This document shows positions 24,139 through 24,501 of a DNA stretch of 43,985 nt, piece after piece. This stretch comes from Aeromicrobium sp. GTDB lineage: Bacteria; Actinomycetota; Actinomycetes; Propionibacteriales; Nocardioidaceae. Numbering within the stretch: position 1 is the first letter of the stretch; each line of letters starts with the position of its first letter. A program made the position numbers and the translations under genes. The notes beneath the pieces are model-generated. The model saw only the letters and a list, made by a program, of their open reading frames with translations, was not told the origin of the DNA and made no database searches. The DNA is taken from positions 1 through 43,985 of the forward strand of contig NZ_JACMOM010000325.1 in the NCBI RefSeq assembly GCF_014378035.1, written 5' to 3'.

Positions 24139-24501
24139 ATGAACCGGATCGGGCTGCGCATTGTCGCGCTCATCCTCACGGCTGGTCTCCTGCTTGCTCC
24201 AGCACTCATCGCGATGATTCCCGACGACTCGACAACCAGTCCCGATCCGGTGACCATCACCGACCACCACGCCAGATTCCTCGTGCAGTCCCACGGCAAG
24301 CTCATTGCCAAGGAGACACTCACGACCGAGTTCCCGGCGGGAAGACACGGCATCTTCCGCGGGGCGAGCTCTTCGGGCAACAACGACGCCTTCTCCGGAT
24401 TCGAGTCCTCGCTGTCCTCCTCGATCAGCGCCTACGCAGCATCCCAGCCGTCCTCATCGTCATCAGGTGGCGACGGCGGTGGCGGTGGCGGTTCGTGGTG
24501 A
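24139..24501 (+). pseudogene. DUF2207-type membrane protein remnant with in-frame internal deletion
   Basis: 120 residues. The N-terminal part has a signal-like hydrophobic segment (about 5-26) and then '[25 protein letters not shown]', the opening of the extracytoplasmic domain of DUF2207 proteins. It then jumps directly to '[19 protein letters not shown]' and '[16 protein letters not shown]', which is how full-length DUF2207 proteins end. The several hundred residues between, including the membrane segments, are missing, yet the frame is open. DUF2207 genes often sit next to lemA, and lemA follows here, 81 bases downstream. It may still yield a short secreted or anchored peptide. Family recognition is from motif memory. 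Confidence 0.7.

Follow-up and report, generated by a model that had tools for sequence, protein, structure and literature searches.

Results

A short ORF ahead of lemA joins the two ends of a DUF2207 gene

The window, i.e., the whole stretch of 43,985 nucleotides of Aeromicrobium sp. DNA that was analysed, carries between argG and lemA an open reading frame (ORF) of 120 codons, and the question that it raises is whether this ORF is what is left of a DUF2207 gene on its way out of the genome, or a small protein that has been kept for its own sake. A first-pass annotation had described it as a DUF2207 gene reduced in frame to its two ends beside an intact lemA, and had offered as origins a recent clean deletion or a domesticated mini-protein that partners LemA. 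The features of the locus are:

22627..24045, minus strand: argG, the divergent upstream neighbour, as in the relatives whose fetched region reached it
24127..24132, plus strand: TAGGAT, a -10-like box six bases before the ATG at 24139, spaced for a leaderless transcript from that ATG
24139..24501, plus strand: DUF2207 remnant ORF, 120 aa, an in-frame fusion of both ends of a ~600 aa gene
24139..24360, plus strand: N-terminal part of the remnant, residues 1-74; signal/anchor helix and the first two strands of the DUF2207 N-domain
24358..24378, plus strand: deletion junction zone, placed by comparing DNA and protein with those of full-length genes
24376..24501, plus strand: C-terminal part of the remnant; last helix and Ser/Gly tail, ending in GGGGSW
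24583..25137, plus strand: lemA, 184 aa, intact, single copy in the genome
25190..27706, minus strand: pheT, the convergent downstream neighbour, as in most relatives

When 48 other genomes of the genus were searched in six frames with the remnant ORF, its two halves matched separately (E values of 1.2e-27 and 2.3e-10), with a gap of ~1.5 kb in the congeners. The best match was genome G036, whose ~600 aa protein is 69% identical at its N-terminus to remnant residues 1-75, and residues ~76-118 are 72-80% identical to the C-termini of the ~600 aa congeneric proteins. The match to full-length genes extends to GRHGIFR (24360) and becomes reliable again at GNNDAF (~24376), so that the breakpoint, previously expected at about 24350-24390, falls at 24358-24378. 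Relative to a median full length of 601 aa, the remnant lacks about 1.44 kb, with the frame kept, and what is retained between argG and lemA are residues 1-74 and the last ~45 residues of DUF2207. About 480 of the 600 residues are thus gone, and the earlier statement that the membrane core had been lost was correct. The accompanying statement that the N-terminal part is joined directly to the Ser/Gly tail was right about the fusion of two ends but not about the direct join, because the C-terminal helix of DUF2207 is kept between them. The G036 full-length protein matches PF09972 and PF20990; in the Pfam search the 120 aa ORF reached 13.9 bits with PF09972 (cut-off 24.4), over profile positions 1-40 of 172 only, and PF20990 was not found in it. 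Since both ends match and the locus is the same, the ORF descends from a full-length DUF2207 gene.

The core has no second copy in the genome of the window

The genome of the window (G000) is a metagenome-assembled genome (MAG) of 4.23 Mb in 400 contigs, 90.5% complete and with 7% contamination. PF09972 was not found anywhere else in this MAG, and the missing 464-residue core had no credible copy elsewhere in it (best E value 0.05, with a stop inside). The ORF is an internal-deletion remnant by the absence of the core that homologues have, in a genome without an intact copy. Its frame is open and not disrupted, and the decayed residues that are usual in such remnants, but not required, were not seen.

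In a MAG of this kind the full gene might be real, and the contig might have lost 1.44 kb or might join two strains. The number of contigs and the contamination would be consistent with such an artefact, as would the fact that the closest parallel to the remnant, in genome G065, also comes from a fragmented MAG, with 8% contamination. However, there is no repeat at the junction long enough to mislead an assembler, the core is on no other contig, the join is clean and in frame with normal flanks, and a single-contig chromosome (G264) has the same kind of loss. An assembly or binning error is therefore unlikely.

As a separate observation on the neighbouring gene, the ArgG of the window (22627-24045, minus strand) shares 94% identity with the ArgG of G025 but only 78-79% with that of every other congener compared, whereas identities of 88-99% are found among these other congeners. 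The presence of two types of ArgG at the same locus suggests a replacement by transfer.

The full-length gene and the pair in the genus

A ~600 aa DUF2207 gene occupies the same place in about 28 congeneric genomes (Aeromicrobium, Nocardioidaceae), none of which has the short form. Among the relatives whose fetched region covers the locus, most have the order argG (-), DUF2207 (+), lemA (+), pheT (-). The PheT tree places the window, with good support, among twelve genomes that form one clade; nine of these have the full pair, and two (G002 and G048) have a DUF2207 cut to the N-domain and membrane helices and no lemA. The open frames of these two span 339 and 453 aa between stops, with coding parts of about 330-340 aa. 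The sister of the window on this tree is G034, with weak support, and its DUF2207 N-part is the most divergent of the group compared, so that constraint may already have been relaxed there.

In the same tree, G001, G015, G016 and G024 form one clade without DUF2207, in which argG and pheT flank a LemA that is truncated to ~145 aa and divergent but whose frame is open in all four genomes (L104 in G001, L105 in G015, G016:C3:12970-13212 and L102 in G024); this form is possibly an adaptation to life without DUF2207. In ten further genomes of the PheT tree neither DUF2207 nor lemA was found, and in some pair-less genomes (e.g., G018 and G011) pheT is followed by argG within about 70 bases. Within the genus the pair is coming apart in more than one way.

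Two observations concern repeats at this locus. In G002 and G048 (L076, L077) GC-rich short tandem repeats lie between the shortened DUF2207 ORF and pheT, at the former place of lemA, with units such as CGTACGCCGACGCGAGGCTTA ahead of pheT in G048. In G041 (L068) the DUF2207 gene breaks into ambiguous bases inside its Gly-rich tail and lemA is on another contig, so that this GC-rich repeat is a weak point for assembly.

DUF2207 has been lost repeatedly beside lemA in the Nocardioidaceae

In the whole family, a strong LemA was present in 115 of 346 genomes and had PF09972 within 8 kb in 102 of these 115, so that the pair is the normal state. Six LemA genomes had no PF09972 at all, and G264, with only a weak and distant PF09972, adds one; two of these seven (G193 and G284) were set aside because their LemA is of a different, divergent type, which left five, including the window. 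The remnants differ among the other four. In G065, which belongs to another genus, an N-part ending in ..DAAETIS is joined out of frame to PAWFVGP..SSFESS..GGGGSW, at a junction different from that of the window, and intact lemA and pheT follow. In G264, CCTAGGCT, which includes the -10 box, is followed immediately by the last ~14 codons, ending in GGGGGSW-stop, and then by an intact lemA. In G095 and G290 lemA stands alone, with nothing recognisable upstream. On the LemA tree the five LemAs without a partner occupy five positions, at least three of them separate, so that LemA without DUF2207 arose at least three times. Such a series would be expected if DUF2207 can be lost while the promoter and lemA have to stay.

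Short DUF2207 ORFs of another kind, with the N-domain only (250-310 aa), were seen as extra genes in G083 (G083:C1:304913-306274), G087 (G087:C148) and G124 (G124:C1:2200690), and in the first two the short ORF adjoins a full-length copy.

The promoter before DUF2207 and the state of lemA

The kept start codon and leaderless-type -10 box, both already pointed out in the first-pass annotation, are features that the window shares with its relatives: a TAnnnT box is found at the same distance from the ATG in nearly all full-length DUF2207 genes of the genus, and at the same spacing in several other Nocardioidaceae loci. A -10 box six bases before the start codon has the spacing typical of leaderless transcripts in mycobacteria. 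A sigma-70 scan of 24000-25200 found no promoter-like site ahead of lemA, which is expected if the promoter is -10-only and leaderless. The LemA of the window covers the full-length domain (PF04011, E value 4.3e-49, 166.6 bits, profile positions 2-149 of 149), it is the only LemA match in G000, and its solved relative is 2etd. We infer that in this genome lemA is transcribed from the old DUF2207 promoter and is under selection.

The 5′ end could also have been kept for an action in cis, as a leaderless start or an RNA leader that controls lemA, and not as protein. The conservation of the box and of its distance to the ATG would fit such a role, and G264 keeps the box without the coding N-part. 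But the promoter itself suffices as an explanation, and G264 shows that the leader codons are dispensable; we regard a cis role of the leader as very improbable.

Measured against the LemAs that have a partner, the window LemA has an HMM score close to the lowest, and as a group the five without a partner have lower scores (Mann-Whitney p 2.7e-4); this is only suggestive, as the groups were set post hoc and two divergent types were left out. Relaxed selection on the window LemA was not taken as proven from this comparison, nor does its branch (0.28) clearly exceed the length to be expected of a species without a close sister.

The kept ends retain almost all conserved positions

The remnant keeps 40 of the 42 positions that at least 85% of relatives conserve (25 of 26 in the N-part, and 15 of 16 in the C-part outside the Gly tract), which implies a young deletion or else constraint on the ends. 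For a neutral remnant, simulation limits the divergence since the deletion to at most ~0.08 substitutions per site; the species' own branch measures 0.27-0.28 changes per site on the PheT and LemA trees, so that, under neutrality, the deletion is recent relative to this branch. The N-part of the remnant has a GC3 of 78% against 89% in lemA (Fisher p 0.03), and the relatives compared all have 86% or more, a weak sign that codon selection may be relaxed.

Constrained ends would be expected if the signal/anchor, the first beta-hairpin and the Ser/Gly tail had been selected as a small exported or anchored partner of LemA, and the in-frame join, the intact start, the conserved promoter and the open frame could be read in the same way as the conserved positions. 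In that case one deletion would have turned a membrane protein of 600 residues into a small but working partner of LemA. However, the short form was found only in G000 when the 346 family genomes and 33 further loci were searched, so that among these it does not behave as a conserved small protein; the equivalent remnant of G065 is frameshifted; and lemA persists without the N-part in G264 and without any remnant in G095 and G290. Furthermore, a join in frame occurs by chance in one of three deletions, and hence needs no selection.

The predicted structures also speak against such a partner. In the AlphaFold2 (AF2) model of full-length G036 DUF2207 the kept pieces correspond to two helices (2-24 and 555-576), two strands (40-50 and 56-66) and the disordered tail, and the deletion takes out most of the outer beta-domain, every membrane helix after the signal and the cytosolic domain. 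For the 120 aa product itself AF2 predicts no fold (mean pLDDT 61, pTM 0.26, with residues 69-120 below 50 pLDDT). The published topology of DUF2207 has an extracellular N-terminus and an intracellular Gly/Ser-rich C-terminus (PMC10457818), but with the later membrane helices gone the tail of the remnant would sit outside the cell, which would make it unlikely that a contact with a partner in the cytosol has survived. On this evidence a mini-protein that partners LemA, the second of the origins first offered, has no positive support and is improbable. The recent clean deletion is supported by the alignment of both ends to homologues, by the breakpoint in the expected place, by the full genes at the same locus in relatives and by the almost unchanged conserved positions.

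No solved structure of DUF2207 was found by sequence. Foldseek with the model of a full-length DUF2207 (L054:2741-4540) found mainly the beta-domain of M1 aminopeptidases (E value about 1e-7, TM about 0.2), and the extracellular beta-domain of DUF2207 probably resembles the N-terminal beta-domain of these enzymes, without their catalytic domain. This likeness gave no functional lead.

Discussion

The remnant is most probably the result of a recent and probably neutral internal in-frame deletion of ~1.44 kb in a dispensable DUF2207 gene, i.e., of ordinary gene loss caught part-way. DUF2207, with its exported beta-domain, membrane helices, cytosolic domain and Ser/Gly tail, is the usual partner upstream of lemA, but a dispensable one that has been lost repeatedly in the family. 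In the model that we propose, a single illegitimate internal deletion would leave the shared promoter and lemA unharmed. Where lemA is still needed, the deletions that are tolerated would be those that spare the promoter before the DUF2207 ATG and the DNA beside lemA; the deletion would then be confined to the inside of the DUF2207 gene because the upstream promoter and the downstream lemA are still needed. Both ends would persist as a short ORF, and lemA would be expressed from the old promoter. If the 120 aa product is made at all, it is most likely a short exported peptide without a function, presumably inert.

As a single gene this is ordinary decay, and its wider value lies in the natural series of deletions across the Nocardioidaceae. 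The series indicates that LemA can persist without DUF2207, although both are almost always encoded together, so that LemA either does something by itself or disappears only slowly. The partnerless genomes are natural mutants in which to test what the DUF2207-LemA pair does. The one mutant study, of a Streptococcus mutans DUF2207 mutant, reported reduced acid and oxidative tolerance and reduced biofilm (PMC10457818).

Compared with the DUF2207 family (PF09972/PF20990), the remnant has homologous ends, the same locus beside lemA and the same promoter box, but it lacks ~480 of 600 residues, i.e., most of the beta-domain, the membrane helices after the signal and the whole of PF20990. The pairing of DUF2207 with LemA has been mentioned in passing (PMC12631010), and the remnant and lemA keep the order and strand of this pair, but the DUF2207 partner in the window is no longer a full protein, so that its LemA is effectively alone. 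The closest likeness in kind is to gene remnants left by internal deletion, with which it shares the lost core, the absence of a second copy and the existence, in other genera, of parallel remnants that are frameshifted or reduced to the tail; it differs from them in that its frame happens to be kept, so that it would be annotated as a small protein, and an in-frame remnant of this kind can be mistaken for a small-protein gene.
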